Source: a virus
Reading direction: 5' to 3' (one strand)
IMG/VR virus record: IMGVR_UViG_3300020162_000565
Span: 1 to 21,423 of that record
DNA length: 21,423 bases
A program made the translations under genes and the position numbers. Positions 3,184-20,539 of this stretch are shown here, piece by piece. How positions within the stretch are numbered: position 1 is the stretch's first letter; every line of letters starts with the position of its first letter. The notes under the pieces are model-generated. The model had not been told where the DNA came from and ran no database searches. It worked only from the letters and a program-made list of their open reading frames with translations.

Positions 3184-3184
3184 A

Positions 3185-3964: not shown

Positions 3965-5120
3965 CTTTTATAATGTGGAAGTGATCTAACTCCTCCCAGA
4001 AGACAGGGTCATCTACGACTTTCGCTAATCTGTCAAGCTTTGGTTGATTGTTTTTCCAAGCTAACTTACTGGCGAATACTTTTTCTTCTGAAAGGATTAT
4101 TTTTTCAGAGGAAAACAAACACGTTTCATCTATCATGTCAATAGCTTTTACGGATTTTTTATCAAAAATTTCATCTTTCTCTAAACCAAAATCAAAGAAC
4201 TTCTCAGCTAGAGCTCCCCAATTCTCATCGTACTTGGCAATTAAATCAATTTTAATTCCAAGCGATTTAACTTCCTTGAGGTATTCAAGCGTAATCGAAT
4301 CGTTAGCGATCATAGTGATGCCATGAATTTTAGATTTGATTGCGTCAATAACGTTGATTGGTATTTCTTTATTGGTAATGATATTAAGAAAGCTGATTGA
4401 AGCTAAGCGGACAAGGTTACTCTCAGAATAATAGTAATCCATTCTGATGTTGCAAATCTTGTCTTTAATGACTGCTGGAGCCATAAGCGAATCAGGAACG
4501 ATCTCAATCATTGGCTTGTGATACAAATCTCCAATGTGAAGTGTTTTTACTTTATCAAGATCGTTTTCGATTCCAAGTTGGTCTAAAGCGGCTTTTGCGA
4601 CTACCTCTGGCATAAAGGTGTTGATCTTCTTCTTTTCCTCTGTAAGCGAAAAGGATGGCTTGCCGTGAGCCTTCCAATCAACTTCAAGCAGCGTTTGATG
4701 TTCAGGGTCGCCCCAAAACGGCTTGCAGTTTTGAGCGTAACAGTAAGGATACATTGCCACGATCTTTTTGTTGTAATGGCCAGCAAAGTGGGCGGATAAG
4801 CTGTCGATGCCAAGGTAAAGCGAAGAATTTTTAATCAAGTACGCTAATTGGGACAAAGAGGTTTTGCCTCTTAAATCCATATCTACTGAATTAACTGACT
4901 GGTCAGATTCAATTCCAACGTGAATGATTTTGTAATCAGTTGTGTATTCTTTGATATGCGTGAATACTTTTGTCCAGTAATCGTACTGACGCGAGTTACC
5001 TTTGCCGCTAGTTTGGAATACGATGTATTTATCAACGGCTAAAGGATAGTAAGATTCATTAACGAAAGGTTCGTCAATATAAACGCCGCAAGATAGTGCG
5101 TAACGATTAAGTAAGTGCAT
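3933..5120 (-). CDS. C-terminal half of a GT9 (heptosyltransferase-like) domain plus a domain of unknown function
   Basis: GT9 enzymes are GT-B glycosyltransferases with two Rossmann halves; ADP-heptose transferases are the best-known members. This 395-aa ORF has only the second, nucleotide-sugar-binding half: a strand at YIVFQTSGKG (32-41), KIIHVG (64-69), and the family signature LRGKTSLSQLAYLIKNSSLY (83-102) followed by GIDSLSAHFAG with D106, S107 and H111. Residues ~190-395 match nothing I recognise. The missing N-terminal half lies at the end of the upstream 638-aa ORF, which overlaps by 14 bp in another frame. The ATG at 5120 has no Shine-Dalgarno sequence. Either both halves are made separately and assemble, or one protein is produced by frameshifting, or the gene is broken. 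Transferred sugar and acceptor are unknown. Confidence 0.7.
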   Translation of the reverse strand: MHLLNRYALSCGVYIDEPFVNESYYPLAVDKYIVFQTSGKGNSRQYDYWTKVFTHIKEYTTDYKIIHVGIESDQSVNSVDMDLRGKTSLSQLAYLIKNSSLYLGIDSLSAHFAGHYNKKIVAMYPYCYAQNCKPFWGDPEHQTLLEVDWKAHGKPSFSLTEEKKKINTFMPEVVAKAALDQLGIENDLDKVKTLHIGDLYHKPMIEIVPDSLMAPAVIKDKICNIRMDYYYSESNLVRLASISFLNIITNKEIPINVIDAIKSKIHGITMIANDSITLEYLKEVKSLGIKIDLIAKYDENWGALAEKFFDFGLEKDEIFDKKSVKAIDMIDETCLFSSEKIILSEEKVFASKLAWKNNQPKLDRLAKVVDDPVFWEELDHFHIIKDERLKHKTIQ

Positions 5121-7023
5121 TTCTAGAAAGTAGATTGAATTGAATTTTGTCTATACCGTTGTGTTGGTAATCGTAATTTTTTTGCGTGCCTAGATGCGGC
5201 AAAAATGTAATGTCGAAATAGCCGTCTCCTTTGGCGTGACCTTCCATAGTCAATAAGTTTTCCATCGCAGGGCTAAACTGGATGACTTTGTGGATATAAG
5301 GATTGCCGTTTAGAAGATCATTGAACTCTGGTTTTGTTGCAAAGTAAATGTTATATTCTGGATAAAGCTCTTTGATAGAAGGCAGCAATGAAGTACTCAT
5401 GAAAACATCTCCTGCGCTTTGCGGCATAACAAACAAGATGCGTCGGCCAACATCATCTTTACTCAAAAGATCAGAAAGTTCAATCTTACTGTTCTGTTGA
5501 TTCTCTTTCATAGCTACGTTTTTAAAGTAAGCTAGGATTTGGTCTCTTGTGACGCCTTTGTTAAGTTGCGAAACCCAAGTTTTGAGACCTTCGTCATTTT
5601 CGTCCACAGTCATTCTCAGTATGTTCTTGTATAAATCAATTATCCAAGCTACATTATCTTCTGTTTCTAGTGGAATATGATTTGGGTTACGAGGCACGAA
5701 ATCGTCTTCAAAATTCCATTCAAGTGCTGGAGCGTTGTCGATAATAGCTTCTAATTGTTTGCCGATAACTTCGGCAGAAAGGTTTTCGATAACAAATTTT
5801 CTAGCCTTCTTGCCCATTACAAGACGTTTTTCAAGAGGCATCTTGTAAACTCTTTCGATCTTTTCTGCAATAGACTCAGGAAGAGTAGTGGCCTTGATAA
5901 AGTTAGTGCCCGGTTCGTAGTATGGCTTCCAGCTAAGAGGCATACCGCCGCTTTCTTCCGTAGAAAAATCTTCGCCACATGAATAGTTAGTGACGAGAGT
6001 AATCAAACCAGTGAGTTTAGCTTCTGTAACGGGAATTTCTTGACCTCCGCTAGTGAACGGATGGCAGTAAACATCCATCAAGTTGTAAATCTCATTAAGC
6101 TGTTCTTCGCTAACGCCGTTTGTGATATTGGTCGTCTCAACGGTATCTTTGCCGTCGCAGTATTTGCACGCAATCTTTTGACCAGAGAACTTTTTGATCT
6201 CATACTGTTTGCATTTCTTGCAGAAGTAGGTTGTGAGAACGTCGTCGTTGCTAATCTCGTTGTCTTTGATGAGTTTAGCGATGTCCCAGCCTTCTCCCCA
6301 GTGGGTATGAAGCAGCAACTTGGCTTTGGACTTTGGATTGTCCTGTTTAAACTTTTTAAAACCTTGAATCAGGTTTGGAACGCTCTTACGAAGTTGATTT
6401 CTAAATACGAAACCAATAATAAACTCGTCAGATAAACCAAATTCTTTTCTAAGAGCAAGTCTATTTTCTTCTTTTAAACGAAAGAACGAAGATGTTTCTG
6501 TTGAGCCTCTGAGCGTTTTGATTGATCCTTTTGGATGACCAAGACGTTCAGCTTCTTTACCAGCGAACGATGCCCAAGCGTAGTAATGATTAACTTTGGG
6601 AATGATTTTGATCGCATCTTGGTAAAGAGGAAGCGAATCAAGAGTTGTCCATACCATGCAGTTCTTATTCCACCACTTCTTTTCTGTAAGTGGGGTTAAA
6701 GCCCAAATATCTTCGACGCCAATATAGAAGTCGGGCTTAACTTCCTTCATCAAATTATCTATCTCATGCAATCCATAACTAACAGAGCGCAATTTTGATT
6801 GATCAGAAGCGATAGATTGAACCACTGATGGTTCAGGCATCGTCCCAAACCCCTTCCAAGGAAGAGTCTTTAGTTCGTCAGCGTCTTTATACTTGGTATT
6901 CGCAAATTCAACAAGGTTATATTTGCCAGTCTTGTATAGGTAACGGAGAACATTCTTCATGTTCTTGCCGAAACCAGTGAAAATGCGACTGCTGTTGCTA
7001 TGGAATACTACTGTTTTTTTCAT
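5107..7023 (-). CDS. GT4 glycosyltransferase with zinc-ribbon insert, ending in the N-terminal half of a GT9 domain
   Basis: This 638-aa protein begins with a GT-B glycosyltransferase of family 4 (group 1). Residues 1-180 are the acceptor-side Rossmann half, and FIIGFVFRNQLRKSVPNLIQ (201-220) opens the donor-side half. HPFTSGGQEIPVTEAKLTGL (321-340) is the donor-binding motif. It keeps the second Glu of EX7E (E334), but the first falls on G326. Between these lies an insert with C268, C271, C286 and C289 (CKKC...CKYC), a likely four-Cys zinc ribbon. Residues ~528-630 (RILFVMPQSAGDVFMSTSLL onward) are the first half of a GT9 domain, which stops abruptly at residue 638; the rest is encoded by the next ORF in another frame. 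The ATG at 7023 overlaps the upstream stop (ATGA), with GAGG 4 nt ahead. It probably glycosylates DNA, virion or host-surface material; substrate unknown. Confidence 0.8.
   Translation of the reverse strand: MKKTVVFHSNSSRIFTGFGKNMKNVLRYLYKTGKYNLVEFANTKYKDADELKTLPWKGFGTMPEPSVVQSIASDQSKLRSVSYGLHEIDNLMKEVKPDFYIGVEDIWALTPLTEKKWWNKNCMVWTTLDSLPLYQDAIKIIPKVNHYYAWASFAGKEAERLGHPKGSIKTLRGSTETSSFFRLKEENRLALRKEFGLSDEFIIGFVFRNQLRKSVPNLIQGFKKFKQDNPKSKAKLLLHTHWGEGWDIAKLIKDNEISNDDVLTTYFCKKCKQYEIKKFSGQKIACKYCDGKDTVETTNITNGVSEEQLNEIYNLMDVYCHPFTSGGQEIPVTEAKLTGLITLVTNYSCGEDFSTEESGGMPLSWKPYYEPGTNFIKATTLPESIAEKIERVYKMPLEKRLVMGKKARKFVIENLSAEVIGKQLEAIIDNAPALEWNFEDDFVPRNPNHIPLETEDNVAWIIDLYKNILRMTVDENDEGLKTWVSQLNKGVTRDQILAYFKNVAMKENQQNSKIELSDLLSKDDVGRRILFVMPQSAGDVFMSTSLLPSIKELYPEYNIYFATKPEFNDLLNGNPYIHKVIQFSPAMENLLTMEGHAKGDGYFDITFLPHLGTQKNYDYQHNGIDKIQFNLLSRNALT
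5134..5146. repeat. 5-bp tandem repeat at the break between the GT4/GT9-N and GT9-C ORFs
   Basis: The plus strand reads ATTGA ATTGA ATT (2.6 copies). It lies inside the stretch, about 5108-5150, where both the 638-aa frame and the frame of the 395-aa ORF are open. Adding one more 5-bp copy would join the two ORFs in frame, reading DKIQFNSIYFLEMHLLN across the junction. The repeat is therefore a plausible slippage site. Confidence 0.6.
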
Positions 7024-7807: not shown

Positions 7808-8794
7808 TTAACTACGCCAGAGAAGATAGAAGCCTTGTATCGTTTTGTCAAGCGTTTCTTCGACAAAAAGTTTATCTTTTATTTTTGAATAAAACTTTTG
7901 AGATTTGTTTATGTAAGCTGATAGCTTAGTTGGATTTGTGACTCCGAAAGTCATAAATTCAGATATGATCTTTGAGTTCATGTAAGCAAAAATAAATAAT
8001 TCAGCAGCTTCTTTTAGCGAAGAAAGCTTTTCTTTATCGACTTCGTAGATAGAGGCGAATGATTCAAAATCCGAATCAGAACAATTCAAGACTTCCTTAG
8101 CTAACCAAAGCTCAATGTATTTATTAGCGTTTGCCGCGTATTCAAAATTTATGAATTTAAATTCATTTTTAGAAAAAATGATGTTAGACAAATCTAGATC
8201 AAAATGACAGATCGAACAATCGGATAACGACGGAACATAAACGTTTTTAAAACGAGATTTTACTGCGCCAAATAATTGAGCTACTGGAAACGTATGCTGT
8301 ATGATGGCAGATTCCATAGGTAAAAACGAACCGATAGTTTCTATGGTTTCGTCTTTATTGGAAGAAGAGAACGAATGAATCTTCTTTAAATCTCTAGCAA
8401 AAAAAGATTCTAGTTTAAGTCTTGGACTTAAAAGATACTTTGAAATATCAGATGCGAACATTCCTTTTGGCATCTCAAAGCATATATAGTTATAGTCTCC
8501 TGATAAATCATAAGAGACAATACTAGGATGAAATGGAAAGTTTTTTGAACAAAGTTTGTCCCAAAAATTAGGGATAAAAGGAGACAAATTAACTTTAAGA
8601 ATAAACGGACGCTTATCTGATGTTAATAGATAAGAGTCATAAAGAGGACTTCTGGAGAATTTTTCGCAATTATCTATCTTGATGTTCGCTTGAGATTCTA
8701 TTCGCTCTTTGATATAATCAAGCATCTCCACTTCAATTGGCAACAGAGTGTTGTCTTGAACTGTGTGCTGTAAGAAGTTTTTCTTTTGTTCCAT
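7808..8794 (-). CDS. Choline-kinase/aminoglycoside-phosphotransferase-like protein with a changed metal site
   Basis: This 328-aa protein has the kinase-like fold of the APH/choline kinase superfamily, which phosphorylates small molecules such as choline or antibiotics. K67 in PFILKVN fits the ATP-binding lysine. CHFDLDLSNIIF (196-207) is the catalytic loop, with H197, D199 and N204 matching HxDxxxxN. The following FINFEYA (214-220) matches the choline-kinase IDFEYA motif, except that the metal-binding Asp is Asn (N216). The usual later FDLA-type motif is also not recognisable (IELWLA). It may be weakly active, altered in metal use, or a pseudokinase. From the ATG at 8794 it overlaps the Clp gene by 62 bp; an ATG at 8725 (Met24, GAAG 5 nt upstream) would start 7 nt after the Clp stop and give 305 aa. 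Tight linkage to Clp suggests related roles. Substrate unknown. Confidence 0.68.
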   Translation of the reverse strand: MEQKKNFLQHTVQDNTLLPIEVEMLDYIKERIESQANIKIDNCEKFSRSPLYDSYLLTSDKRPFILKVNLSPFIPNFWDKLCSKNFPFHPSIVSYDLSGDYNYICFEMPKGMFASDISKYLLSPRLKLESFFARDLKKIHSFSSSNKDETIETIGSFLPMESAIIQHTFPVAQLFGAVKSRFKNVYVPSLSDCSICHFDLDLSNIIFSKNEFKFINFEYAANANKYIELWLAKEVLNCSDSDFESFASIYEVDKEKLSSLKEAAELFIFAYMNSKIISEFMTFGVTNPTKLSAYINKSQKFYSKIKDKLFVEETLDKTIQGFYLLWRS

Positions 8795-11171
8795 TGACTT
8801 GTATCTCGTTATCTTTAATCTTTACTTTGATTTGATTATAAGAGTTACTAGCCAAACTGTCAACTATCTTTGTTTTAAGTTCATTTTCAATGAAGAAGAT
8901 AACTCCTCTAGCTCCGTTTTTAGAGTCTTTGGTTTTAGAGATAATAAAATCTACAACATCCTTAGAGAACGAAACGGTGGTGCCATTAACTTTAAGCGAA
9001 GCTTTAATAGACTCAAGTTCAGTTTCCGCGATCTTAACCAGCGACTCTTCTTTAAGATGGTCAAAGATAATCACATCGTTCAAACGAGCCAAGAACTCTG
9101 GTCTAAAAAATCTTTTTAATTTATCTTGAACAGCTTCTTTTGAGATAGTTTCTTCTGACGGAGCGCAGAAACCAATTTGTTTGTTGTCGCCAAACTGAAA
9201 ACCAATGTTGCCAGTCATAATCAAGATACAGTTTTTGAAGTTAAGTTTTCTACCGTTTGAATCGTTAAGTTCTCCATTGTCCATCACTTGCAAAAGGATG
9301 TTGATAACATCTGGATGAGCCTTTTCAATTTCGTCAAACAAGAAGATTGTTGAAGGGCGCTTCTCCAACTGATTAGAAAAGACGTTTGATTTGCCGTATC
9401 CAACATAACCCGGAGGCGAGCCAATCAGCTTAGACACTGAATGAGACTCCATATACTCTGACATATCAATTCTTACTAGACTGCTTTCGCCGCCAAAAGC
9501 TTGCTTAGAAAGCACCTTGGCTAAATGAGTTTTACCAGAACCAGTTGGACCAACGAACATAAAGCTACCTAATGGTTTGTTGGTAGCCGATAAGCCAAAC
9601 GAAGAGCGCAAGATACAGTCAGATATTTTCTTTAGGGCTGCGTCTTGGCCAAAGACGTATTTTTTTAGTTCTTCATGGATATTTCTAAAATTAGAGTCTT
9701 GAGCGTTAGTGTCGATTATAGACCCAACTTTCTCGCACAAGACTTGATAAACGTCTTTACGAGTAGCTGTTACTTTTTTGTTTTCTTGCAGCTTCATCCA
9801 AGACTCAAATTTTATTTTATAGTCTTTGAGAATATTGTTCATATGAATACTCTTAGACTCTTCGGACTCAAACAAATCATCAGACTGCTCTAAATCAGCC
9901 ATCATTTTCTCGATCTTTTTAATCTCTTCGCTTCTAGCGTAAGTCTTGATTTTGACCTTAGCCCCAACTTGATCTAAAATGTCGATAGCTTTATCTGGGA
10001 ATCTTCTATCGGGAATGTATCTAGCGCACAGCTCGATTATGTCGCTAAGCGTTTCATCTGGGAACCTGATCTTGTGGAACTCTTCGTAGTAAGACTTGAT
10101 ACTTTTAAGAATATTTAAAGTCTCTTCTTTGCTTGGTTCTTTAACAAAAATCGACTCAAACCTGCGATTCATTGCAGAATCCTTTTGGAAATACTGCTCA
10201 TATTCTTTTTGAGTGGTAGCTCCAATGCAAGTTATTTCGTTAGTAGCTAAATAAGGCTTTAATATATTAGCGGCGTCTAATGAACCTTCGTCATTACCTA
10301 ATCCAATGATCGTGTGGATTTCGTCAATAAACAAAATAATCGACCTGTTCTCTTTAACTTCTTTGAGAACTTTATGAAGACGCTCTTCAAATTGACCTCT
10401 AAGATTTGTTCCTGCGACCATTGCAGTCATGTCCAACTGCATAATAGTTTTGCCTAGCAAGAACTCAGTGGACTCTCCAGTAGTTATTTTTTTCGCCAAC
10501 AGTCCAACGATAGTGCTCTTACCGACGCCCGCTTCGCCAACAAGAATTGGGTTGCGCTTTTGCTTGCGGCAAAGAACCTCTGACACTTGGGCAACCTCGG
10601 CGTCTCTAAAACAAGCGTTATCAAACTCGCCGTTCTCCGCCTTCTCTGTAAAATTTATACAAAAATCTTTTAAAATAGAAGACGAAGAAGAAGATGATGT
10701 GGTTTGCGATTGTTTTTTAGTAGGATTAGATACGTTTTTGCATCCAGACTCAATCTCGCTAGACAAAAAGATAATATCTACGCCTTGAGATTTAAAAAAC
10801 TTCTTCGCACAAGGAGAATGCCTAAGCATAGAAAGAAAAAGATGCTCAACACCAGTATAATTTTGATTATAGTAGCGAGAAATCTTATAAGATTCCTTGA
10901 TAACCTTAATTACTGCGTCGGTATAATCGACGGAGGTTTTCTTGCGCTTCTTTTCTGGAAGCTCTTTCTCTAATCTGTTAACTAGCTCTGATGGAAGAAC
11001 TTTAATCTGCTCAAATGCGTTATCAACAATCATTGATTGTGACAAAAGCAAGGCATAAAGCATAAAAGACTCGTCAATCTCGACGTAATTATGACTTAGA
11101 CACTTTTGCTTAGCGATGTCTAAGAGTCTTTTTACTTTTGGAGTGAAGTTAACGTCTTCCACTTTATTCAT
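8733..11171 (-). CDS. Clp ATPase (HSP100, ClpA/ClpC-like) with two AAA+ modules and a ClpP-docking-type loop
   Basis: Clp unfoldases pull proteins through a hexameric pore and, with ClpP, degrade them. This 812-aa protein has all expected parts. An N-terminal Clp_N double repeat (~1-140) is followed by a Ser-rich linker (~156-166). NBD1 has Walker A GEAGVGKST (K218) and Walker B FIDE (D283, E284), with R336/R337 near the arginine-finger position. A short middle domain (~410-465) is closer to ClpC than to ClpB. NBD2 has Walker A GPTGSGKT (K547), Walker B LFDE (D613, E614) and pore loop GSPPGYVGY (584-592). KQIGFCAPSEE (664-674) aligns with the ClpP-binding IGL loop of ClpA. The NBD1 pore loop lacks its aromatic residue: NLRGQFEERL in place of KYRGEFE. 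Start is 9 nt after the polymerase stop. No ClpP is encoded here, so it may use host ClpP. Confidence 0.93.
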   Translation of the reverse strand: MNKVEDVNFTPKVKRLLDIAKQKCLSHNYVEIDESFMLYALLLSQSMIVDNAFEQIKVLPSELVNRLEKELPEKKRKKTSVDYTDAVIKVIKESYKISRYYNQNYTGVEHLFLSMLRHSPCAKKFFKSQGVDIIFLSSEIESGCKNVSNPTKKQSQTTSSSSSSSILKDFCINFTEKAENGEFDNACFRDAEVAQVSEVLCRKQKRNPILVGEAGVGKSTIVGLLAKKITTGESTEFLLGKTIMQLDMTAMVAGTNLRGQFEERLHKVLKEVKENRSIILFIDEIHTIIGLGNDEGSLDAANILKPYLATNEITCIGATTQKEYEQYFQKDSAMNRRFESIFVKEPSKEETLNILKSIKSYYEEFHKIRFPDETLSDIIELCARYIPDRRFPDKAIDILDQVGAKVKIKTYARSEEIKKIEKMMADLEQSDDLFESEESKSIHMNNILKDYKIKFESWMKLQENKKVTATRKDVYQVLCEKVGSIIDTNAQDSNFRNIHEELKKYVFGQDAALKKISDCILRSSFGLSATNKPLGSFMFVGPTGSGKTHLAKVLSKQAFGGESSLVRIDMSEYMESHSVSKLIGSPPGYVGYGKSNVFSNQLEKRPSTIFLFDEIEKAHPDVINILLQVMDNGELNDSNGRKLNFKNCILIMTGNIGFQFGDNKQIGFCAPSEETISKEAVQDKLKRFFRPEFLARLNDVIIFDHLKEESLVKIAETELESIKASLKVNGTTVSFSKDVVDFIISKTKDSKNGARGVIFFIENELKTKIVDSLASNSYNQIKVKIKDNEIQVNGTKEKLLTAHSSRQHSVAN

Positions 11172-11180
11172 TTTACACTT

Positions 11181-13736
11181 TTAAGATTGTAAGTCAGATA
11201 ATTTAGTATATATTTTTTCGTTAAGAATACTCAACGAGTCCAAGAAGATAGAGTCGTCGGATTTGTTTCCGTAAAGAACAACGATGTCGTCTTCTTCGGG
11301 TGTTTTACCGCCACCCTCGTAGTAGCGAGTGAGTTTGTCTTCCCTACCGTCCATGAGGCGGCAAGACATTTGCCCGTATTCGTCGGAGATTTGAATGAAT
11401 AAGTATTTGTTTCCATTTTTGCTAGTTTTTTTCTTTGCTTCTTTGACTACGCCAACGATCTTTACTGGCTGGCGAGCATCTAACTGAGATATTTCATAAG
11501 TTGTCAACAGTCTTTCCCCGTCTTCTTCTGAAAAAACATCTCTTAACTTGTGAGTATAGCTATAACCAAGTAGCTTTTTCTCGAAAAACCAGTTAGCGAA
11601 TTTTTCGTGAGTCTTGTTCATTTCGTAGATTTTTTTATACGAGTCGTACTTAGTTCTAAATGTTGTAAAGCGTTTCTCGCTCATGAATGGCTTTGCGTCG
11701 TCGCCAGCCAGCTTGTTCTTAACCAAGTCAGCGATAGCTTTTAGAACATCAAAATCATATTTGGGTCCAACAAGTTTAATATTTCTCTTCTCTCTATCAG
11801 TAAGAATATTGTAAGACTGGGCTTCAAGAGCTAGTCGGCAGCGTCTCTCACTAAAACTAGAAAGCGTTCCTGCTTGAATCAAAGAAGAAAGAACGCCGAT
11901 ATTAAGACCAGCTTCTTTAGCTGCGTCAAAACAGTCGATCTTGTCAGAAAATTCTTTTTGCCTGAAAGCTAAAAGACTCTCTAAGACCTTATCGGAAACG
12001 CCTTTGATTGCGTTAAGACCAAATCTAATGTTTTTATCTTCAACCTCAAAATCAGATTTTGATTTAACTAAATCAGGAGAAAGCAGTTTAATATCGAAGA
12101 AAGGCAGTTCTTGAGAGATTGTTTCAATCTCTTCGTGTGGATTAGGTTCGTGTTTGGAAGATTTTAATAGGGCCAAGAAGAACTCTTGAGGATAGTTGAA
12201 TTTAAGATAAGTTGTTACGGCACTTAATGTTGCATAAGATACAGCGTGAGAAGCGTTGAAAGAATAGTTCGCGCTATCTTCTGCGACCTTCCAAAGAACA
12301 TCTGATATAACAGGGTCCAAGTTATTCTCCTTGATTTTGTTAGAAATCTTTTCTTTCCAAGCTGGCATTTCGCTAACCTTCTTTTTACCAATGATGCGTC
12401 GAACAGTTTCAGCTTCATCTAAAGTAAAGCCTACTTTAACCACCATCTTCATCAACTGCTCTTGAAAGATTGGAATACCTCCAGTTACGCCTAAAATATC
12501 ATCGAAGAATGGGTGAAGAGATTGGAATTGGCCAGTTTCAACGTATGTCGCATACTGATTCATAAAATCCAACGCGCCTGGCCGTGCTAGAGCCAACACA
12601 CAGGCCAATTCAAAGAGATTACGAGGCTTGACCTTCCTGCATACATGAAAGTTCGTATTGGCCTCAATTTGGAACAGTCCCTTTGGATTAGATAGGTCTT
12701 GGAAATATTTATAGGTAGATGACGAGTCGTAATCAAGAGTTTTGAAGTCTAAGCCTAGTCTCTTGCAGGTTTCATAAACAACAGACAAGGTTCTCAGGCC
12801 AAGAATATCGAACTTAACAGTGATCTCGGAAATGTTATTCATTTCGTACGCACTAACAAGTTCTCCTTCGCCTGTCTTTTGCAGAGGCATAATATCCTCG
12901 TTGTTGAAGTAGGAGATAGAAATACCTGATGGATGAACGCCGCAATTCTTGTTTAAGCCTTCTAATTTTTTAGCAATTTTAAATACCTTTGGATGAGAGT
13001 CGCAGAAAGCTTTAAACTGTTCGCTTTGTTTGTAGGCATCTTTTAGGGCGAATACCTTGCCAAATTGTTTTGGGATAACGTCGCTAATAGCGTTAACGGC
13101 ATCTTCGCTCATTTCACCAACGATCTTACCGCACTCTTTGACACAGAGTTTACCAGTAAGAGTGTTCATAGTAAGAATCTTACAAGTCTTACCTGCGTAT
13201 TTAGTTTTGATGTAATCAATAACTGCTTGGCGTTTAGAGAACTCAATGTCATTATCAACATCGGGCATTAGAGAACCATCAAGATAAGTTACCCCATCAA
13301 CGATTGTTTTCTTAGCGCGACTCTTGGAAACGAAACGCTCAAAGAAAAGACCGTGCTCGATTGGGTCAACGTTAGTGACGCTAACCAAAAACAAAATCAA
13401 AGAACCAGCGGCGGAGCCACGACCATATCCAGTTGGAATGTCGTTCTCATGAGCAAAGTTCATGATGTCCCAATTAAGAAGAATGTAATCAACGAATCCT
13501 AGCTCTTCAAAAACAGCTAACTCCATTTTTGCTCTGTCGTAATACTCCTGCTTGTTAGCTTTCTTATCAATGCCTTTGCTCTTAACTGCGTTAAGGCATA
13601 GCTGGCGAAGAAAGTCGAGGTTTGAGCAGCCCTTCTGAATCTTGAGTCTTTCGTAATGACGATCATCAATCTTGATTTCAGGAAGGCGAACACCCGGTGG
13701 AATGGGGTTTTTATAGTCTGTAAATTTGTCTAACAT
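11181..13736 (-). CDS. DNA polymerase III alpha-family (DnaE-type) polymerase core, without PHP domain
   Basis: This is the polymerizing part of a C-family replicative DNA polymerase. The 851 aa begin at the segment that follows the PHP domain in normal DnaE, with GRGSAAGS (105-112) early in the palm. The catalytic Asp triad looks intact: D159 and D161 in MPDVDND, and D310 in KFDILGLRTL. Fingers, the tail region with a helix-hairpin-helix stretch (IRFGLNAIKGVSDKVLESLL, 570-589) and a C-terminal OB fold (VKIVGVVKEAKKKTSKNGNK, 758-777, to ~826) follow in the usual order. Bacterial DnaE is about 1,160 aa; the missing ~250 are supplied by the PHP cistron two genes upstream. No clamp-binding peptide was recognised. 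The start overlaps the exonuclease stop by one base (TAATG), with GGAGG 10 nt upstream. Confidence 0.95.
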   Translation of the reverse strand: MLDKFTDYKNPIPPGVRLPEIKIDDRHYERLKIQKGCSNLDFLRQLCLNAVKSKGIDKKANKQEYYDRAKMELAVFEELGFVDYILLNWDIMNFAHENDIPTGYGRGSAAGSLILFLVSVTNVDPIEHGLFFERFVSKSRAKKTIVDGVTYLDGSLMPDVDNDIEFSKRQAVIDYIKTKYAGKTCKILTMNTLTGKLCVKECGKIVGEMSEDAVNAISDVIPKQFGKVFALKDAYKQSEQFKAFCDSHPKVFKIAKKLEGLNKNCGVHPSGISISYFNNEDIMPLQKTGEGELVSAYEMNNISEITVKFDILGLRTLSVVYETCKRLGLDFKTLDYDSSSTYKYFQDLSNPKGLFQIEANTNFHVCRKVKPRNLFELACVLALARPGALDFMNQYATYVETGQFQSLHPFFDDILGVTGGIPIFQEQLMKMVVKVGFTLDEAETVRRIIGKKKVSEMPAWKEKISNKIKENNLDPVISDVLWKVAEDSANYSFNASHAVSYATLSAVTTYLKFNYPQEFFLALLKSSKHEPNPHEEIETISQELPFFDIKLLSPDLVKSKSDFEVEDKNIRFGLNAIKGVSDKVLESLLAFRQKEFSDKIDCFDAAKEAGLNIGVLSSLIQAGTLSSFSERRCRLALEAQSYNILTDREKRNIKLVGPKYDFDVLKAIADLVKNKLAGDDAKPFMSEKRFTTFRTKYDSYKKIYEMNKTHEKFANWFFEKKLLGYSYTHKLRDVFSEEDGERLLTTYEISQLDARQPVKIVGVVKEAKKKTSKNGNKYLFIQISDEYGQMSCRLMDGREDKLTRYYEGGGKTPEEDDIVVLYGNKSDDSIFLDSLSILNEKIYTKLSDLQS

Positions 13737-14365
13737 TAGATTTCAACCTCCGAGATTTGGCGACGAAAGATTTTATAATTCATTTTAATATCGTACAAGG
13801 CGTTATGCAGCATTGCTGGGTCATGTTCAATGCCATAGTGCTTTAGGAGAAAGCCTTGGCTTGTTTTGATACCTTTTTCAAAGTGATTCATAAGTTTCAT
13901 TTGCCAACAGAGAAAATCTCCATCGTTAGGTTTCACTTGTTTAAAGATAGACATAGCTAACGCTCTTGTGTCAATCATTCTACTCAAGAAACTCCAGTCG
14001 TTCTGAATACCCAAGCAATTCATGAGAGTGTTCAAAATGTAAATGTCGTAATTCAAAATGTTCTGACCAACAAGAATAACGTCCTTATCGTAAAGGGTCT
14101 TGGCGAACTTTTGCCAGACTTCCATAGGAGGCTTGGCTTTGCTCAAGTAAGTTTGTTTATTAAAGTTCGTAATCTTGGCCGCGCCTTCTGACATGCTCAA
14201 ATCTTCAAACAAAATGAATTCATCATGCTCTTCGATAACGTCTTCTCCTTGACAAATAATCCAAGAGAGTTGCCAAGGGCGAGATGACGACAAAGACAAG
14301 CCTTCTGTCTCGGTATCGAAGACAGCTATTTTTTGGTGCTTGTTATTTCTTAAAAGTGTTTTCAT
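13736..14365 (-). CDS. DEDDh 3'-5' proofreading exonuclease (DnaQ/epsilon-like)
   Basis: This protein removes mismatched 3' ends and most likely proofreads for the polymerase encoded just downstream. All five DEDDh residues are visible (209-aa numbering): D17 and E19 in VFDTETEGL, D107 in NILNYDIYIL, and H187 and D192 in HNALYDIKMN. I place the start at 14365, not at the upstream ATG at 14392. It makes an ATGA overlap with the PHP stop, has GGAAAG 7 nt upstream, and begins close to the first catalytic strand as DnaQ-type proteins do. Its stop overlaps the polymerase ATG by one base. Its place between PHP and polymerase genes recalls PolC, where the exonuclease is built into the polymerase chain, but here it is a free cistron. 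Confidence 0.92.
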   Translation of the reverse strand: MKTLLRNNKHQKIAVFDTETEGLSLSSSRPWQLSWIICQGEDVIEEHDEFILFEDLSMSEGAAKITNFNKQTYLSKAKPPMEVWQKFAKTLYDKDVILVGQNILNYDIYILNTLMNCLGIQNDWSFLSRMIDTRALAMSIFKQVKPNDGDFLCWQMKLMNHFEKGIKTSQGFLLKHYGIEHDPAMLHNALYDIKMNYKIFRRQISEVEI

Positions 14366-15117
14366 TTTGATTCTTTCCAAGATTGGACGCAAAACTCTCT
14401 GCTAGCACAGCCATTAAGTTCTGGAGCAGACAAAGTCTGGAACTTACCCATGCGTCTATTACAAGCTATCTTATAAGTTACCCAAGCGTCATAATCACTT
14501 CTGTTCTTGTAATAAATTGATTTAGTTTCAACGATATTCCCTTTCTTCGCGTAACACGAAACAAAATCGGCAATATGCTTGTCGAAAGGAAGTTTATTAT
14601 TCTCTACGAAATATGTATGATCATGTTTGTCAATAAAATCAGGAACACAATGCGAAAAAGTATAGTTGTTATTCCAGATATATGAGTCGTAAAAAGGGAT
14701 AACCAGATGAACATCTTTTGTGATTAGGTCGCTTAAATCGGTACTTGATATGAATCCGTCTTTTACTGCATTAGTAAAGGTATAGATTCTGTTAACCTGT
14801 TTGAAGCCTTCGTCGTTCAAGGCAAAAAGAACAACTTTGTGTTTCGAGTTATCAAGTGGGTCATAACTATTGGACACAGTTATTCTGATACCGAACTTGA
14901 GAGAAAGCTTATTGGCCCTGCAAGCTTTGAAAGCAGAAAGAAATCCAGTAAAAGAATCTTCAACCAAGAAAACTTCTTTCAGCCCATTTTCCAAGGCGAT
15001 AGAAATAATGCTGTCTGGGCCATCCTCTTTCTGCTTCTCTGGTTCGGCCAGAGTTAAAATGCTTTTCCCAACGGAAAAATGAGACTTAAATAACGGAATC
15101 ATCTCGCCATCATTCAC
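14362..15117 (-). CDS. Stand-alone PHP domain of a split DnaE-type polymerase, metal site lost
   Basis: This 251-aa protein corresponds to the N-terminal PHP domain (about 1-270) of DNA polymerase III alpha. The outline is kept: KSHFSVGKSILTLAE (11-25) at the place of HxHSxYSxLDG, FLVEDSFTGFLSAFKACRAN (50-69) at the place of LTDHGNMxGAVEFYKACK, LKFGIRI (73-79) for IIGxE, and HKVVLFALNDEGFKQVNRIY (93-112), the most convincing match. The PHP metal ligands are mostly gone: the first HxH and the TDHG motif are absent, and the late NDVHY is TKSIYY (198-203). It is therefore probably structural, docking onto the polymerase or exonuclease, not a phosphoesterase. Lower identity makes it easy to miss; identification rests on this alignment plus its place just upstream of the exonuclease and polymerase core. 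It starts 15 nt after the previous stop without a clear Shine-Dalgarno sequence. Confidence 0.75.
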   Translation of the reverse strand: MNDGEMIPLFKSHFSVGKSILTLAEPEKQKEDGPDSIISIALENGLKEVFLVEDSFTGFLSAFKACRANKLSLKFGIRITVSNSYDPLDNSKHKVVLFALNDEGFKQVNRIYTFTNAVKDGFISSTDLSDLITKDVHLVIPFYDSYIWNNNYTFSHCVPDFIDKHDHTYFVENNKLPFDKHIADFVSCYAKKGNIVETKSIYYKNRSDYDAWVTYKIACNRRMGKFQTLSAPELNGCASREFCVQSWKESK

Positions 15118-15132
15118 GGCTTTTTGGAAATG

Positions 15133-16155
15133 TCAAGACTTAATATGCCTTGGGCATCCAGCATAATGCTCTTTTGTTACCTTGTCTGTTTCTTTCGCCA
15201 TCTTGAAAGCTTCATCTTTGTCCTCTTCGGAAAAAGTTTTGATGATGTTGTTGCCCTTGTCTCTAACAGCGTAATAATTGTAAGCAAACTTGTATGGGCA
15301 GTGCCACATTGGATTACCGTCCTTCTTCAAATGGCCTTTGAATTTGGCGAAGCCGCAAGAAAGCTTGCCGCTAAACGAGCCATCTGACGGTATCGGCTTG
15401 TCGGCGGCAAAGTTTGAATGCGCGTCTGCCTCTGAAAAATTATCAATTACTTTTTGAATTTCGCAAAGATGATCTTCAAAATCTGAAAGCTCTTGATCTG
15501 ATAAAGCGGGCATAGTTAAAAGACCGTCGCCACCACGAGACACGTCAAACTTCAAAAACAAGAACTCCATGTTAACCTTATGATTTGGGTTAAGTTGTTT
15601 TGAAGCAAGAGTGTACATCAAGTGCTGCAAATTATCCTCGGCGTCTTTGCCAGCAAAAACGGCCTTGCTGGTTTTGTAATCTCTTACTGTGGATGAGTTA
15701 TCAGAATAAACAAATTGACGGTCAATAAAACCCTTGATACGGTATTTTTTATTGTTTTTATCTACCACAAGATCAAACGATCTCTCATTAAAATCTTCAA
15801 CAGGCTTCTGCTTCTTGTCCCCAAAGAAATCATACTTTAAGCCTACGAGAGTCATGTCTCTAATCAGCTTCATGTTTTCAGGGTCGGAGACTCGATTTTT
15901 GCGGGCGCGCTTTAGCGTAAGCGACTTAATCGAAGGAATAACAAAAGGATCTCCTTCTTTGATTATCTTATTGACGTATTTCTTTCTTCTTGGATTAGAA
16001 AGCATTTCGAGAACCAAGTGAACTACATCGCCGCGATTTGCGCCGTCATTAGATGAGTCTGGAAGCTTCAAGACATAGTTGCACCAGTAAGACCAGCTAC
16101 ATTTATCTAAGGTCTTAATTCTGCTGGCGGATAAAGCTGTTAATGGTTTAGACAA
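15133..16155 (-). CDS. PD-(D/E)XK nuclease of the Cas4/RecB-like (PDDEXK_1) type, TTG start
   Basis: This 340-aa protein has the nuclease fold found in RecB, AddB and Cas4. LSASRIKTLDKCSWSYWCNY (8-27) is the typical N-terminal helix, RGDVVHLVLE (41-50) carries H46, GFID gives D145, and VRDYKTSK gives D159 and K161; NLQHLMYTLA (175-184) supplies the conserved Gln. This is a complete active-site set, suggesting a DNA exonuclease or end-processing enzyme for recombination. C19, C25, C267, C286 and C334 could bind metal, but spacing does not match the Cas4/AddB iron-sulfur pattern. There is no in-frame ATG before residue 51. The TTG at 16155 has AAAGGA 5 nt upstream and an in-frame stop further up, so it is the start. 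The gene overlaps the primase stop by 8 bp. Confidence 0.85.
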   Translation of the reverse strand: MSKPLTALSASRIKTLDKCSWSYWCNYVLKLPDSSNDGANRGDVVHLVLEMLSNPRRKKYVNKIIKEGDPFVIPSIKSLTLKRARKNRVSDPENMKLIRDMTLVGLKYDFFGDKKQKPVEDFNERSFDLVVDKNNKKYRIKGFIDRQFVYSDNSSTVRDYKTSKAVFAGKDAEDNLQHLMYTLASKQLNPNHKVNMEFLFLKFDVSRGGDGLLTMPALSDQELSDFEDHLCEIQKVIDNFSEADAHSNFAADKPIPSDGSFSGKLSCGFAKFKGHLKKDGNPMWHCPYKFAYNYYAVRDKGNNIIKTFSEEDKDEAFKMAKETDKVTKEHYAGCPRHIKS

Positions 16156-17239
16156 ATGATTCCTTTAGTTCTTCTGCTTTCTTGATTAAGAAACGATTAA
16201 AATCGTTTTGGCAAGCTATTTCGTATATTTTTTTAATTTGAGCTTCTTTATTTATCGCCTTATCATTCCATTTATCAAATATATTATCTTGGCCCTCAGA
16301 TTTTAATAAGTTCATATCACTAAAATCATTAGCAAGAGGAAGTTTGATTAGAAGTTTCGTGTGGTCAAAAACAGAACAGAGCTGCAAGTAAGACTTACAA
16401 GATGAGACTAATCCGTGATTAAACTCGCTAGTTGCATCATTGTTATAGGCGATAATGATTTTATCGGGATTAAGCTCAACAAGAGTTGAGCAAAGCTTAG
16501 AAGAAATTCCTAAGCCAAAGGTAACTAGATTGTTTGCGTAGCCGTTTTCAAAAAGAGCCATGCTGTCCCCAATACTCTCGACAATAATAACAGTTCCCGT
16601 TTCTGCGATTTTCTCTCTAACAATTTCTACGCCACCACGCTTAACGTGAAGAGGGTAAACCCAATTTGTCTTTTTCCCTAAATGCTTCCATTTTGGAAAT
16701 GTAGAGTCTTTATCCCATACAGTAGCTCTAGCGGAAAACCCATGAATCTGTCCTTGAGAATCATATATCGGGAAAACAATTCTTCTGAAAAGCTGACCAG
16801 CAGTTGCGTAGCCGCATTTATAGAAATTAAGAGTGTCTGGAGAAATCATCTTCTTGGAATAAAAGTCCAAGTGAGGAAGAAGATTCTCTAGCATTGATTC
16901 TGGATAGATTTTTTCCATTTCGATTTTCTCTTTAACTTCATTGGATATAGTATTTTGAAGATCAAATTTTACATACTTATCTATCACTGAATCATCTTTT
17001 GTATTTAACGTAAGAGAGATTAGCTTCTTAATCGGAAAGCTTTTATCTCCGCTGGCAAAGTCTGTCCATACGCCGCTGTTCTTGTAAATCTTTAAAGCTG
17101 TAGCGTTATCGCCTCCGCGATAAATCGCAGAGGACCGCCAATAGCTGCCGCAATCTCTTAGATTATAACCTAAAGATTCTAGCGAGCTTTTAAGCTGCGT
17201 AGGATCAAGCGTTAAAGTTTGGGACATCGTCCGGTTCAT
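16148..17239 (-). CDS. DnaG-type TOPRIM DNA primase, without zinc ligands
   Basis: This protein would lay RNA primers at the phage fork with the DnaB-type helicase encoded upstream. The 363 aa have a CHC2-like N-terminal domain: YWRSSAIYRGGDNATALKIY (33-52) then NSGVWTDFASGDKSFPIKKL (54-73), in the usual place of the zinc-binding domain but without its Cys/His ligands. A primase core follows (FRRIVFPIYDSQGQIHGFSA, 151-170). The TOPRIM domain has E221 in VIIVESIGDSMALF and IIIAYNNDAT (261-270). The classic DxD motif is therefore NxD (N266, D268), a change I recall in other phage primases. There is no C-terminal helicase, unlike T7 gp4. Two starts are possible: ATG at 17239 (used here) or ATG at 17227; both lie inside the helicase gene and neither has a strong Shine-Dalgarno sequence. 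Confidence 0.87.
   Translation of the reverse strand: MNRTMSQTLTLDPTQLKSSLESLGYNLRDCGSYWRSSAIYRGGDNATALKIYKNSGVWTDFASGDKSFPIKKLISLTLNTKDDSVIDKYVKFDLQNTISNEVKEKIEMEKIYPESMLENLLPHLDFYSKKMISPDTLNFYKCGYATAGQLFRRIVFPIYDSQGQIHGFSARATVWDKDSTFPKWKHLGKKTNWVYPLHVKRGGVEIVREKIAETGTVIIVESIGDSMALFENGYANNLVTFGLGISSKLCSTLVELNPDKIIIAYNNDATSEFNHGLVSSCKSYLQLCSVFDHTKLLIKLPLANDFSDMNLLKSEGQDNIFDKWNDKAINKEAQIKKIYEIACQNDFNRFLIKKAEELKESFV
16161..16166 (-). promoter_or_regulatory. Shine-Dalgarno AAAGGA that fixes the TTG start of the PD-(D/E)XK nuclease
   Basis: AAAGGA on the minus strand lies 5 nt before TTG at 16153-16155, inside the end of the primase gene. No ATG or GTG is available between the upstream in-frame stop and the first conserved residues. 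Confidence 0.75.
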
Positions 17240-18725
17240 TAGATGCTTCTGGTCTGGTTATTCCTGTGTCCATTGAGCGAACAATATCGCGCAAATCGCC
17301 ATGCTCAGTAACGTCAAAGTTATTGAAACGAAGGTTAATGAAATTACGGCGAAGATTTCCATCTGGCAAACGAACAGGCTCAACCGCTCCTGCAATGTCA
17401 GAACCTAAGAAACGATTCTTGATAAAGATCAACTTATGAGTACCGAAATTCTCGCCGTCCTCCATTCTCTCGTCAACTGTCTTGTGGCGAAGAATAGCCA
17501 TATGAGAACAGTAATGAACGATACGGTCAGACATTGAAACAATACTTTCATCATCGTTAATATCGCTAGCGTTACGGTTTGTAGTTACGCCGCTTCTATT
17601 TGACTGAACAGAAGTGAACATAGACACTAAAGGTTTATGGTCTTGAACCAGATCGCGTTGAATAGTCTTCTTGAACTTATCAAGCATATTACCAATCACC
17701 TGCCATTCAGACTTATCTTTATCAGAGTCGGCAGAAGGCTTAATGTAATCGAAACTAAAAATCATCCTGTTACCACGACCAATCTTTGAGTAATAGAATC
17801 TCTTGAGAGTATTAACCATTTGGTCTGTCGTCATGCCGCCAACATTGTAATAGTAAAATTTAAGGTTTTTAACCTTAGTCCAAGTAGCGCGAACGCGATC
17901 AACGGTCTCAGGGCCAGCTTTACGCCAAAGACCGCTTTCAAGAAGATGAACAGGAACATGACTCAAAGCCGCGCATTGGCGCATGATAACTTCTTCTTTG
18001 CTCATTTCGCCATTATCAAAATGGAGAACTGGAACATCGTATTGAGCAGAAACCTTTGTGCAGAAATTTAGAGACAAGAGGGTTTTACCAACACCAGATC
18101 GAGCAACGATAACTGAGATATTACCGGGTCTTAAAAGGGAGCCATAAATCTTGTTAACTGTCGGGAATGGACCCATAAGGCCAAACTCAGTAATCGGATT
18201 GTTACCTCGATCTTCAATAACAGACTCCATTTCTTCAAAAATATTAACAGGCTTTTCGTCATTGTTCTCATATAAATTAATCGTTTTATTAAAAGAAGAG
18301 TCGGCTTCTTCGATGATCTTTTGATAAGAAGCGTCTGGAGCCATCCTCTTCATCTTGTCCGCTACGTCCAAGGCAGACTTATAGATTGTGCGTCTAATAG
18401 AATATTTCTTAATCTCTTTTGCCGCAGCGATTGCTGTTGTAGGATTAGTCTTTCTAATAGCTAAAGAACGGCAATAATCAAAAGTATTGATATTGTCTTG
18501 GAAGGAAACTCCAATTTCCTTAATTCTTTGAGCTATAATAACTTCATCTATCTTTTCGTTAGCTTCTAAGCATTTGCGAACAATATGGTAGATAGTTTTA
18601 TGTACGACAGTCGATTCGGAGTAAAAATCAGATTCAGATACAAAGTCGCAAACTTCTGCGTAAGTATCAGGATACTGAATTAAACCCGCGAGGAACTGCT
18701 GTTCTACTTCTAGTGAATAAAGCAT
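17205..18725 (-). CDS. Replicative DNA helicase, DnaB-like
   Basis: This 506-aa protein is a hexameric 5'-3' replicative helicase of the DnaB type. Residues 1-~120 form the DnaB N-terminal helical domain (MLYSLEVEQQFLAGLIQYPD). After a linker comes the RecA-fold motor: RPGNISVIVARSGVGKT (199-215) with Walker A K214 and T215, VLHFDNGEMSKEE with catalytic E240, and Walker B MIFSFDYIKP with D326. VSMFTSVQSNRSG (367-379) fits the later DNA-binding and Gln-sensor region. The order helicase then primase is a common phage replication pairing. The ATG at 18725 shares one base with the stop of the 84-aa gene (TAATG), with no Shine-Dalgarno sequence, so translation is probably coupled. No dedicated helicase loader was recognised nearby. 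Confidence 0.94.
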   Translation of the reverse strand: MLYSLEVEQQFLAGLIQYPDTYAEVCDFVSESDFYSESTVVHKTIYHIVRKCLEANEKIDEVIIAQRIKEIGVSFQDNINTFDYCRSLAIRKTNPTTAIAAAKEIKKYSIRRTIYKSALDVADKMKRMAPDASYQKIIEEADSSFNKTINLYENNDEKPVNIFEEMESVIEDRGNNPITEFGLMGPFPTVNKIYGSLLRPGNISVIVARSGVGKTLLSLNFCTKVSAQYDVPVLHFDNGEMSKEEVIMRQCAALSHVPVHLLESGLWRKAGPETVDRVRATWTKVKNLKFYYYNVGGMTTDQMVNTLKRFYYSKIGRGNRMIFSFDYIKPSADSDKDKSEWQVIGNMLDKFKKTIQRDLVQDHKPLVSMFTSVQSNRSGVTTNRNASDINDDESIVSMSDRIVHYCSHMAILRHKTVDERMEDGENFGTHKLIFIKNRFLGSDIAGAVEPVRLPDGNLRRNFINLRFNNFDVTEHGDLRDIVRSMDTGITRPEASNEPDDVPNFNA

Positions 18726-18979: not shown

Positions 18980-19386
18980 AGTTCTACTCCTTGTTTTGAA
19001 AAAATCTCATGGTTGATTTCCTCGTCTTCGTAAATCTCTACGAGCACAATTCCGTTTGTCAAGCAAAACTTCATCTTTAAATCGTCCCTCTTCAACTGCG
19101 CGAGCCAGTTAAGACGATTATTGTTGTGAAAAAACTTATTGAACTGCTGGTGCTGCTTGCCTTGAACCTCTACTGCAATTTTTTTATTTGCGTTGTAGAA
19201 GTCCAAAGACAAGCGAGTCCCAGCAACCCGAAGCTCTTCAAAAACGATGTCGTGCTTCCAATAAGAGAATAAAAACTGTTTTACTCTCCATTGAACTTTG
19301 CTTCTTGATTTTGCATCCCAATTAATTAAGAATTTCTTAGAGTTTTTAATTAATTTTTCTTTGCCGTTAAGCGTTTTGAATTTCAT
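18976..19386 (-). CDS. Small PD-(D/E)XK endonuclease, VSR-like
   Basis: This 136-aa protein has the core of the VSR/homing-type PD-(D/E)XK nuclease fold: HDIVFEELRV (45-54) supplies an early Glu, LSLDFYNANKKIAVEVQGKQ (59-78) gives D62 and the ExQ pair E73/Q75 with H79 just after, then a helix with RDDLKMKFCLTNGIVLVEI (100-118), the typical last strand. It probably cuts DNA, possibly mismatched or branched structures, for recombination or repair. It lies directly after the RecA-like gene with a 20-bp overlap and ahead of the helicase, which supports a recombination role such as resolving or trimming intermediates. It lacks the GIY-YIG or HNH motifs of typical phage homing enzymes, and is in the operon and strand of its neighbours, so a selfish homing gene seems less likely. 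The start at 19386 has no Shine-Dalgarno sequence. Confidence 0.7.
   Translation of the reverse strand: MKFKTLNGKEKLIKNSKKFLINWDAKSRSKVQWRVKQFLFSYWKHDIVFEELRVAGTRLSLDFYNANKKIAVEVQGKQHQQFNKFFHNNNRLNWLAQLKRDDLKMKFCLTNGIVLVEIYEDEEINHEIFSKQGVEL
18987..18992 (-). promoter_or_regulatory. Strong Shine-Dalgarno AAGGAG before the 84-aa gene
   Basis: AAGGAG lies 7 nt upstream of the ATG at 18979, within the last codons of the VSR-like nuclease gene. It is notable because most starts in this window have weak or no Shine-Dalgarno sequence. Confidence 0.75.
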
Positions 19387-20539
19387 TTGAAGGGCCGCTC
19401 GAAATCATATCCACAAAATACTTGTGGAGAATCTTCGTTAATTTTTCGTTGCCTTCAATAAATGAGAATAAAGCGTTTTCACCTTGGAACTTTTCAGGCA
19501 CCTCGATCTTGTTAGAGGAACAGATTTCCTTCAAGTCTTCGGAAATGTAATACCAAGCTCCAGAACGCTCAACCAAACCCCAAGTCAACAGCATATCTAC
19601 GATTTCCTTCTCAAGCCAAACAGAACGCCCATTAGTGCGCCCATATTTGATTGGATAAGTGATGCGGTTCTTGCTCTTTTCGTTTGGACTCTTTTTGATA
19701 TAGATTTTGCAGTAATGCCCAATGATAGGATTCTTTACTGGATCAGACTTCTTAATTGCTGGGTCTTTAAGAATAACGTCCCCTTCAAAACGAGGCTCAA
19801 ACTCAAAAATGAAATTGGCAAAGTGAAGTAGAGCATTACCGCCAGTAGCGGACGTTTGGCGGATAGGAGCTTTACTGTATGGGTCTAGTTGAATATCGCT
19901 TCTGACTTGAGAAATGAAAATAGCCATATGTCCGCGTTTGGTTAGGCCAATAGACATACGCTTCATAAAGTCAGCGGCGATTACTGCTCCGCCAGCTACT
20001 TTCTTGGAGTCTTCAAAATTCTTGTCCAAGTCTCCCTTAGAAATAAGACCATCTACAGAATCAAGGACAAACATATACTTAGACTTATCATCATTGAACT
20101 GAACTAATTGCCGCATAGCGTCAACAGCAGTTTCGTAAATATTGCACTCAAATACGAAACAGGTTCCAACCTCCCAAGATTCGGCGTCGAAAACGAACTT
20201 AACGCCAGAACGCTTTTGCATCTCATCAGAAAGACGACCTTCCGCTTTGATGAAAAAGCCCTTTGAATTTGGAACGCTGGACAAAAAGTTACGCATAACT
20301 TCAAGCGCGGCGGATGTTTTGCCGCCTTCTGTGAAACCCACGAACCTATGAAGACCGGGTCCAATGCCTCCGCTGGTCTGCATATCAAGATTTAGTGAAC
20401 CAGTAGAAACCCGATAATTGAAGGTTTCTTCAAAGTTATAGTGATCTTCCTTTTTATTATTTAAAAACGATTTCAAAACAGAGTTTGATGAAACGTGACC
20501 TTCTGGCTTTTCTTCTTTTACTTTTTCTTTCTTGCTCAT
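19367..20539 (-). CDS. RecA/UvsX-like recombinase
   Basis: This 390-aa protein is an ATP-dependent strand-exchange recombinase. Walker A is GFTEGGKT (68-75, K74, T75), an unusual variant of GPESSGKT. FIKAEGRLS (97-105) supplies E100, matching the catalytic E96 of E. coli RecA. Walker B is YMFVLDSVDGL with D160. The DNA-binding L2 region is ISQVRSDIQL (Q211) through TSATGGNALLHFANFIFEF, close to RecA's NQIR...TTGGNALKF. LTWGLVERSGAWYYI (318-332) is the RecA C-terminal signature. The charged N-terminus before residue 40 is longer than in bacterial RecA. The start at 20539 overlaps the previous stop (ATGA), with AAAGGA 9 nt upstream. It probably drives recombination-dependent replication and repair with the two nucleases downstream. 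UvsX and RecA cannot be separated from motifs alone. Confidence 0.93.
   Translation of the reverse strand: MSKKEKVKEEKPEGHVSSNSVLKSFLNNKKEDHYNFEETFNYRVSTGSLNLDMQTSGGIGPGLHRFVGFTEGGKTSAALEVMRNFLSSVPNSKGFFIKAEGRLSDEMQKRSGVKFVFDAESWEVGTCFVFECNIYETAVDAMRQLVQFNDDKSKYMFVLDSVDGLISKGDLDKNFEDSKKVAGGAVIAADFMKRMSIGLTKRGHMAIFISQVRSDIQLDPYSKAPIRQTSATGGNALLHFANFIFEFEPRFEGDVILKDPAIKKSDPVKNPIIGHYCKIYIKKSPNEKSKNRITYPIKYGRTNGRSVWLEKEIVDMLLTWGLVERSGAWYYISEDLKEICSSNKIEVPEKFQGENALFSFIEGNEKLTKILHKYFVDMISSGPSNEIQNA

Follow-up and report, generated by a model that had tools for sequence, protein, structure and literature searches.

Can the parts of a C-family replicase be supplied by separate genes, and does the enzyme then still assemble in the usual way? 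The question is raised by an IMG/VR record that was analysed over its entire 21,423 bases (the whole stretch is called the window below), in which a PHP domain, a DEDDh exonuclease and a PHP-less polymerase core are encoded by three genes, all on the minus strand. The PHP domain is retained, often in a catalytically dead form, by every bacterial Pol III, for reasons that are not fully understood. A sequence-only reading of the window had described the three adjacent genes, and they are real, as judged from the open reading frames, the Pfam matches and the recurrence of the trio in relatives. The sizes given there hold for the core (851 aa) and the exonuclease (209 aa), while for the PHP protein 246 aa is likelier than the 251 aa proposed, on the homology of an internal ATG (MIPLFKSHFS) that is common to the relatives.

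The trio lies within a replication module, with nuclease, primase, DnaB helicase and RecA genes upstream and the gene for a Clp-type AAA+ ATPase downstream (Table 1). Both junctions are as had been claimed, and GGAGG stands about 10 nt upstream at the TAATG junction between exonuclease and core, again read directly from the sequence.

Table 1. Features of the replicase locus and its surroundings in the window
Feature	Coordinates	Strand	Remarks
Clp/Hsp100-type AAA+ ATPase, adjoins core	8733..11171	(-)	AAA_2 2e-56, AAA_lid_9, ClpB_D2-small, Clp_N
PHP-less DnaE core: palm, thumb, fingers, HhH, OB	11181..13736	(-)	851 aa
Exonuclease/core stop-start overlap TAATG	13734..13738	(-)	read directly
DEDDh 3'-5' exonuclease, DnaQ/epsilon-like	13736..14365	(-)	209 aa from ATG at 14365
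Exonuclease ORF, maximum extent	13736-14392	(-)	218 aa from TTG
PHP/exonuclease stop-start overlap ATGA	14362..14365	(-)	read directly
PHP (free DnaE PHP domain)	14362..15102	(-)	246 aa; metal site degraded
PHP ORF, maximum extent	14362-15117	(-)	251 aa from GTG
PD-(D/E)XK nuclease, upstream of PHP	15133..16155	(-)	PF12705 2e-18
DnaG-like primase	16148..17239	(-)	DNAG_N + Toprim; phrog_47
DnaB-like helicase	17205..18725	(-)	DnaB_C + DnaB; phrog_19 5e-45
RecA-like recombinase	19367..20539	(-)	PF00154 1e-10

What kind of polymerase is the core? Pfam matches to DNA_pol3_alpha (2e-59), DNA_pol3_finger (2e-29) and HHH_6 (residues 549-634) are followed by a weak OB match (758-824, 5e-5, below the Pfam cut-off); HhH and then OB after the fingers is the order of DnaE, with the OB fold C-terminal to HhH. 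When the core profile was compared with the PDB, DnaE1 was the best match (Taq DnaE, 6e-113) and PolC reached 9e-8, and the palm residues D161, D163 and D310 are invariant in 45/45 cores. We class the core, on its sequence, as a C-family DNA polymerase of the DnaE type and not as PolC. The hallmarks of DnaE1 were not found in it: no C-terminal domain is recognised, the protein ending soon after the OB fold, and the beta-clamp motif Q..[LM][FL] was found at residues 641-760 in 0/45 cores. PHP and core had been reckoned to approach one full DnaE; the two do make up one DnaE, but with the C-terminal domain missing. Nor, in the window or in any relative in the clade, does the core chain begin with a PHP domain, as DnaE usually does. 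Neither a DnaN clamp nor a PolA or PolB family polymerase was matched in 15 contigs, none of which is known to be complete.

The exonuclease matches RNase_T (2e-14) and phrog_192, 'DNA polymerase exonuclease subunit' (8e-25), and a model of the protein from relative L060 has the DnaQ fold (TM 0.81 to E. coli epsilon, 2ido). D26, E28, D116, H196 and D201 (218-aa numbering) are invariant in 48/48 exonucleases, and these residues are those of a DEDDh, DnaQ/epsilon-like enzyme with its active site intact. The exonuclease and PHP profiles proved unrelated on comparison, as expected. The Pfam match of the PHP protein itself (PF02811, 3e-5) falls just below the cut-off, and the protein is identified because it matches positions 62-254 of phrog_405, the segment upstream of the core's match, and because of its fold: in a Foldseek search, the L060 model finds the Pol III alpha PHP domain of 2hnh, 4iqj and 3e0d and of the alpha-epsilon chimera 4gx8. 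A catalytic PHP metal site carries the motif HHDHEH[C/H]DH (PMC12926913). The HxH motif is absent from 47/47 PHPs and the free PHP is therefore inactive by the published motif (PMC12926913); with its metal site degraded, it is likely to be structural.

Is the arrangement peculiar to one contig? Relatives came from two scans of viral contigs and a third of genome contigs, their PHP, exonuclease and core genes being identified by profile searches. Without duplicates and truncated copies, the sets number 45 (core), 48 (exonuclease) and 47 (PHP). All 45 cores are 845-875 aa long and begin after the PHP domain, none being fused to it (0/45). In contigs searched whole, a free PHP gene was present in 15/15 and the exonuclease in 14/15, the one contig without it being a 31-kb fragment. 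The three genes, for which a search of relatives had been proposed, thus recur as an arrangement, though the spacing between them ranges from -59 nt to +4.9 kb and other genes intervene in L065, L067, L070, L077, L080 and L140, the trio remaining separate. In L077 and L080 PHP is parted from the exonuclease/core genes by those for helicase, primase and nuclease, and the dispersed PHP gene still adjoins DnaB/primase. Equal expression, which had been read into the junctions, cannot be judged from them, the overlaps and gaps varying in this way.

Median identity is 55% for the core and 41-44% for PHP and exonuclease, and the lowest pairwise identities are 38% (45 distinct full-length cores), 25% (47 PHPs) and 25% (48 exonucleases); the faster divergence of PHP and exonuclease possibly reflects looser constraint on their sequences. 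Against L003 (94% identity), the only relative used because dS is saturated for the others, dN/dS is 0.031 for PHP, 0.025 for the exonuclease and 0.039 for the core. Because the trio recurs in relatives and dN/dS is 0.03-0.04 for all three genes, the arrangement is not the product of chance or sequencing error, and read errors at the junctions are excluded. No member of the clade was seen to carry an unsplit DnaE; distant relatives do. Among GenBank phages, tblastn with the exonuclease (E up to 0.01) gave no match and with PHP (E up to 1) only weak matches to DnaE1 in Clostridioides phages, results which mean that near relatives are absent from GenBank phages and nothing wider. The core matches 1,306 GenBank phage records, all at <60% identity.

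A quick, unrooted maximum likelihood tree of 63 sequences recovers the split clade as monophyletic (25/25, SH-aLRT 100); its stem is long, and bacterial DnaE1 and DnaE2 and the other phage DnaE lie outside the clade. The distant viral relatives with unsplit DnaE are L081 and L085-L106, and the nearest of these by score is L081, at 30% identity. A 121-kb IMG/VR contig, L084, has a PHP of 313 aa and a core of 829 aa in overlapping genes, with a strong PHP match (4.6e-31), the HxH motif kept and no exonuclease between them. This contig falls outside the split clade, as expected for an independent origin, and since it lies elsewhere in the tree, the domain-boundary split probably arose at least twice.

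If the PHP domain is free, does it still sit on the core? Whether the two share an interface had been named as decisive, and such an interface is predicted in an AF2 model of relative L032, where the PHP and core genes share a frame and the intervening DNA, a 212-residue out-of-frame stretch with stop codons read as Gly, serves as linker. The pTM of the model is 0.75, with pLDDT of 82-97 for PHP, mostly >80 for the core and <50 for the linker (254-465); the ceiling without placement of PHP relative to the core is about 0.60 (686/1150). In Foldseek, the model superposes on intact E. coli alpha with TM 0.78 over 910 residues and on 5lew with TM 0.80 over 919 residues, the core alone being able to cover about 0.70 of these alpha targets (910-919 residues), and its fold match to PolC is far weaker than that to DnaE. 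Moreover, the C-terminal segment of PHP has pLDDT <50 without the core (in another member, L060) and 82-97 with it. Because the pTM lies above the ceiling and the superposition exceeds what the core alone could cover, the model suggests that PHP docks on the core in the place that it has in one-chain DnaE; this support comes from pTM without PAE, is hence indirect, and concerns L032 rather than the window. Perhaps AF2, which was trained on intact DnaE, is recalling fold knowledge in this docking. The further proposal that PHP scaffolds the exonuclease, which is in line with the alpha-epsilon contact known from E. coli, was not confirmed: an in-frame PHP-exonuclease fusion (L060, AF2) reached a pTM of 0.54, about that of one domain alone, with PHP-only rows partly misaligned at the tails.

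Some members of the clade carry the division further. In L036 the core is in two pieces, with a split intein at FNK^SHS and a NUMOD3 endonuclease gene between them; L134 has a split intein at FNK^SHS too, but no endonuclease gene; the intein of L037, at RR^CVGKKK, is in cis and includes a LAGLIDADG domain. As read from their genes, the replicases of L036 and L134 are encoded in four chains, and these members underline the enzyme's tolerance of being in parts. The split DnaE intein of cyanobacteria likewise lies in the FNKSHS stretch, the insertion in L036 and L134 being presumably three residues further on; the window has no such intein.

These inteins bring to mind a history in which DnaE was broken by a mobile element, either a split intein or a homing endonuclease, and is rejoined by trans-splicing of its halves. 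However, neither the C-terminus of PHP nor the N-terminus of the core shows any apparent intein sequence, the two proteins end and start at a domain boundary, and their profiles extend almost to their ends. While a mobile element may have caused the break between PHP and core in the past, present-day trans-splicing there is not supported by the sequences, and we consider this history extremely improbable. We give hardly any credence, too, to the production of one PolC-like polyprotein by programmed frameshifting, for which the ATGA and TAATG overlaps of the window would be suitable sites. Overlap lengths and relative frames differ among relatives, whole genes lie between in several of them, the ATG at the core start is conserved, and there is some excess of Shine-Dalgarno-like sites (before the exonuclease, 22/48 against 8.2; before the core, 15/58 against 7.7; the sets of 48 and 58 include some truncated duplicates).

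Another possibility is that the free parts are ancestral and that one-chain DnaE arose by fusion, as has been proposed for the minimal Pol III that jumbo phages carry in pieces (PMC7824862). The long stem of the clade, outside bacterial DnaE1 and DnaE2, would agree with such a history, but PHP is fused to DnaE in nearly all other branches and is in-chain in PolC as well, so that it is simpler to suppose a single clade in which DnaE was split; judged on the unrooted, quick tree, ancestral free parts are very unlikely. Perhaps, finally, PHP is no longer part of the polymerase at all and has become a protein in its own right, such as a factor that binds nucleotides or DNA, whose gene just keeps its place in the replication cluster, the core working with the exonuclease alone. 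Its dispersal from the exonuclease and core in L077 and L080 and its faster divergence would fit this idea. Considering that PHP is nevertheless present in 15/15 contigs and stays next to DnaB/primase even when dispersed, that its C-terminal segment is modelled confidently only with the core and is placed as in intact DnaE, and that loss of the metal site makes an independent enzymatic role unlikely, we find this idea improbable.

The reading that we prefer, and regard as quite probable when taken whole, is a separate-subunit DnaE-type phage replicase with PHP obligate and the exonuclease gene between PHP and core, in which PHP became a separate subunit in the ancestor of the clade and has remained so as an ancient, stable arrangement. 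What the sequences themselves give is three genes, a conserved arrangement, intact polymerase and exonuclease sites, a degraded PHP site and a single origin. The enzyme would be the replicative polymerase, C-family and DnaE-type, of a lineage of uncultured tailed phages, with the covalent link to PHP replaced by an ordinary protein-protein interface with the core. The binning of contigs with Flavobacteriaceae, Saprospiraceae and others is a weak hint at the hosts. PHP would serve as a structural brace on the core and as a landing surface for the exonuclease, and the working enzyme would be a PHP-exonuclease-core heterotrimer that copies the phage genome while its DEDDh subunit proofreads; the PHP-exonuclease contact, the function and the stoichiometry are what we infer. 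Residues 1-270 of E. coli alpha (PHP) are soluble alone and sufficient to bind epsilon (PMC3642679), and PHP supports polymerase stability, loss of its site going with a separate exonuclease (PMC3666897). By analogy, the phage trio would fit the E. coli logic of an inactive PHP, an active-looking exonuclease and a core needing a brace. A more specific version, in which PHP is a true separate subunit, exchangeable, separately regulated and in a heterotrimer with the proofreader, the enzyme having four chains in some members and no recognisable clamp, seems to us evenly balanced between right and wrong.

With PHP, proofreader and core naturally separate, each could be expressed, mixed or omitted singly, without engineered truncations, and the structural role of PHP, the holding of the exonuclease and the effect on speed and fidelity become directly testable. 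The replicase is kept stably in pieces across deep divergence, and the breaks known in phage DnaE genes, within the palm or at inteins, are supplemented by a conserved split at a domain boundary.

How does this replicase compare with known systems? With bacterial DnaE and DnaQ/epsilon it shares the palm-thumb-fingers-HhH-OB order, the catalytic aspartates, the PHP fold, the predicted docking of PHP and a DEDDh proofreader as a separate chain. It differs from them in that PHP is its own gene product, the core is without a recognised C-terminal tau-binding domain or a QxxLF-type clamp motif, and the exonuclease is without a long C-terminal tail. PolC likewise brings together PHP, a DEDDh exonuclease and a C-family polymerase, but in a single polypeptide, its exonuclease inserted in PHP and its OB fold N-terminal, whereas in the phage a separate exonuclease gene follows PHP, the core has a C-terminal OB fold and PHP is kilobases away in some relatives. 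PolC was rejected as the family on the positions of exonuclease and OB fold, the weak similarity (~1e-7 against 1e-113) and the fold. The likeness to PolC suggested by the sequence-only reading is thus set aside, sequence and fold similarity both being far weaker than to DnaE, and its idea of a DnaE-like enzyme taken apart is upheld: relatives share the trio, and PHP is predicted to keep its contact with the core.

Among phages, the group 2.2 jumbo phages have a minimal split Pol III alpha in nucleotidyltransferase and template-binding halves, with other Pol III domains missing and a family B polymerase alongside (PMC7824862). The two systems have in common a C-family phage polymerase in separate genes, but the core described here is undivided, PHP is retained and there is no family B match in the contigs searched. 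Most GenBank phages inspected carry unsplit DnaE, as do the Gordonia, Mycobacterium, Chryseobacterium and Wifcevirus genes inspected, and no DnaE with a free PHP was seen among these records; no description of one was found in the literature searched, which left most subscription journals outside. Corynebacterium phage P1201, with its 'phosphoesterase' gp60, was considered as a PHP split and rejected, gp59 containing PHP. A viral fold search also returned a 'DnaE-like' 317-aa protein of Gordonia phage Finkle. DnaE does lie in more than one ORF in Cellulophaga phiST (gp044/gp045), Lactobacillus B2, Lysinibacillus LC76P1 and Alicyclobacillus KKP_3916, but these broken genes are cut inside the palm before DxD, with PHP on the N-terminal piece. 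Pbunavirus PB1 and Wifcevirus likewise have a DnaQ-like gene directly upstream of the polymerase gene, DnaE there being one long ORF of ~970-1,050 aa, and an exonuclease gene before unsplit DnaE, as in these phages, is a plausible starting arrangement for the split clade.

In two relatives of the window, the polymerase core (DnaE without its PHP domain) is itself divided by a split intein, at the identical site FNK^SHS. In the first (L036), where the intein halves are about 90 aa (IntN) and 37 aa (IntC), a NUMOD3 endonuclease ORF sits between the core halves, and the replicase is a four-piece enzyme. In the second (L134), the halves lie only 21 nt apart and the endonuclease gene is absent. A third relative (L037) carries a cis intein within the core at RR^CVGKKK (Intein_splicing, LAGLIDADG_3), and an additional 176-aa gene separates its exonuclease gene from the core.

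Coordinates of the features discussed
Locus	Positions	Feature
L036	10001-13879	core with split intein
L134	5974-8958	core with split intein
L037	9983-13771	core with cis intein
Window	8733-11171	Clp/Hsp100-type AAA+ ATPase
Window	3933-7023	glycosyltransferases, one with DUF4214
L084	8976-12400	PHP/core split
phiST (L197)	33697-37297	DnaE in two adjacent ORFs
PIS 136 (L125)	2572-5718	'Na+/proline symporter'

The window's ATPase gene lies immediately downstream of the core. Its glycosyltransferase genes precede ribonucleotide reductase, within the replication/nucleotide metabolism region, and similar-looking ones occur in L036.

Contigs with the PHP, exonuclease and core genes (L127-L135, L140, L151) have been assigned by binning to MAGs from Flavobacteriaceae, Saprospiraceae, Proteobacteria, Verrucomicrobiales, Halobacteriovorax and a Lokiarchaeon. 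These are probably phage contigs, and the binning is at best a weak hint to the host.

The 3.1-kb 'symporter' annotated antisense across DnaE in Saccharomonospora phage PIS 136 is probably an annotation artefact. An independent PHP/core split occurs in a different phage lineage (L084, a 121-kb IMG/VR contig), whose PHP protein has a strong Pfam match and retains the HxH motif. In Cellulophaga phage phiST the DnaE break falls in the palm, immediately before the DxD motif.
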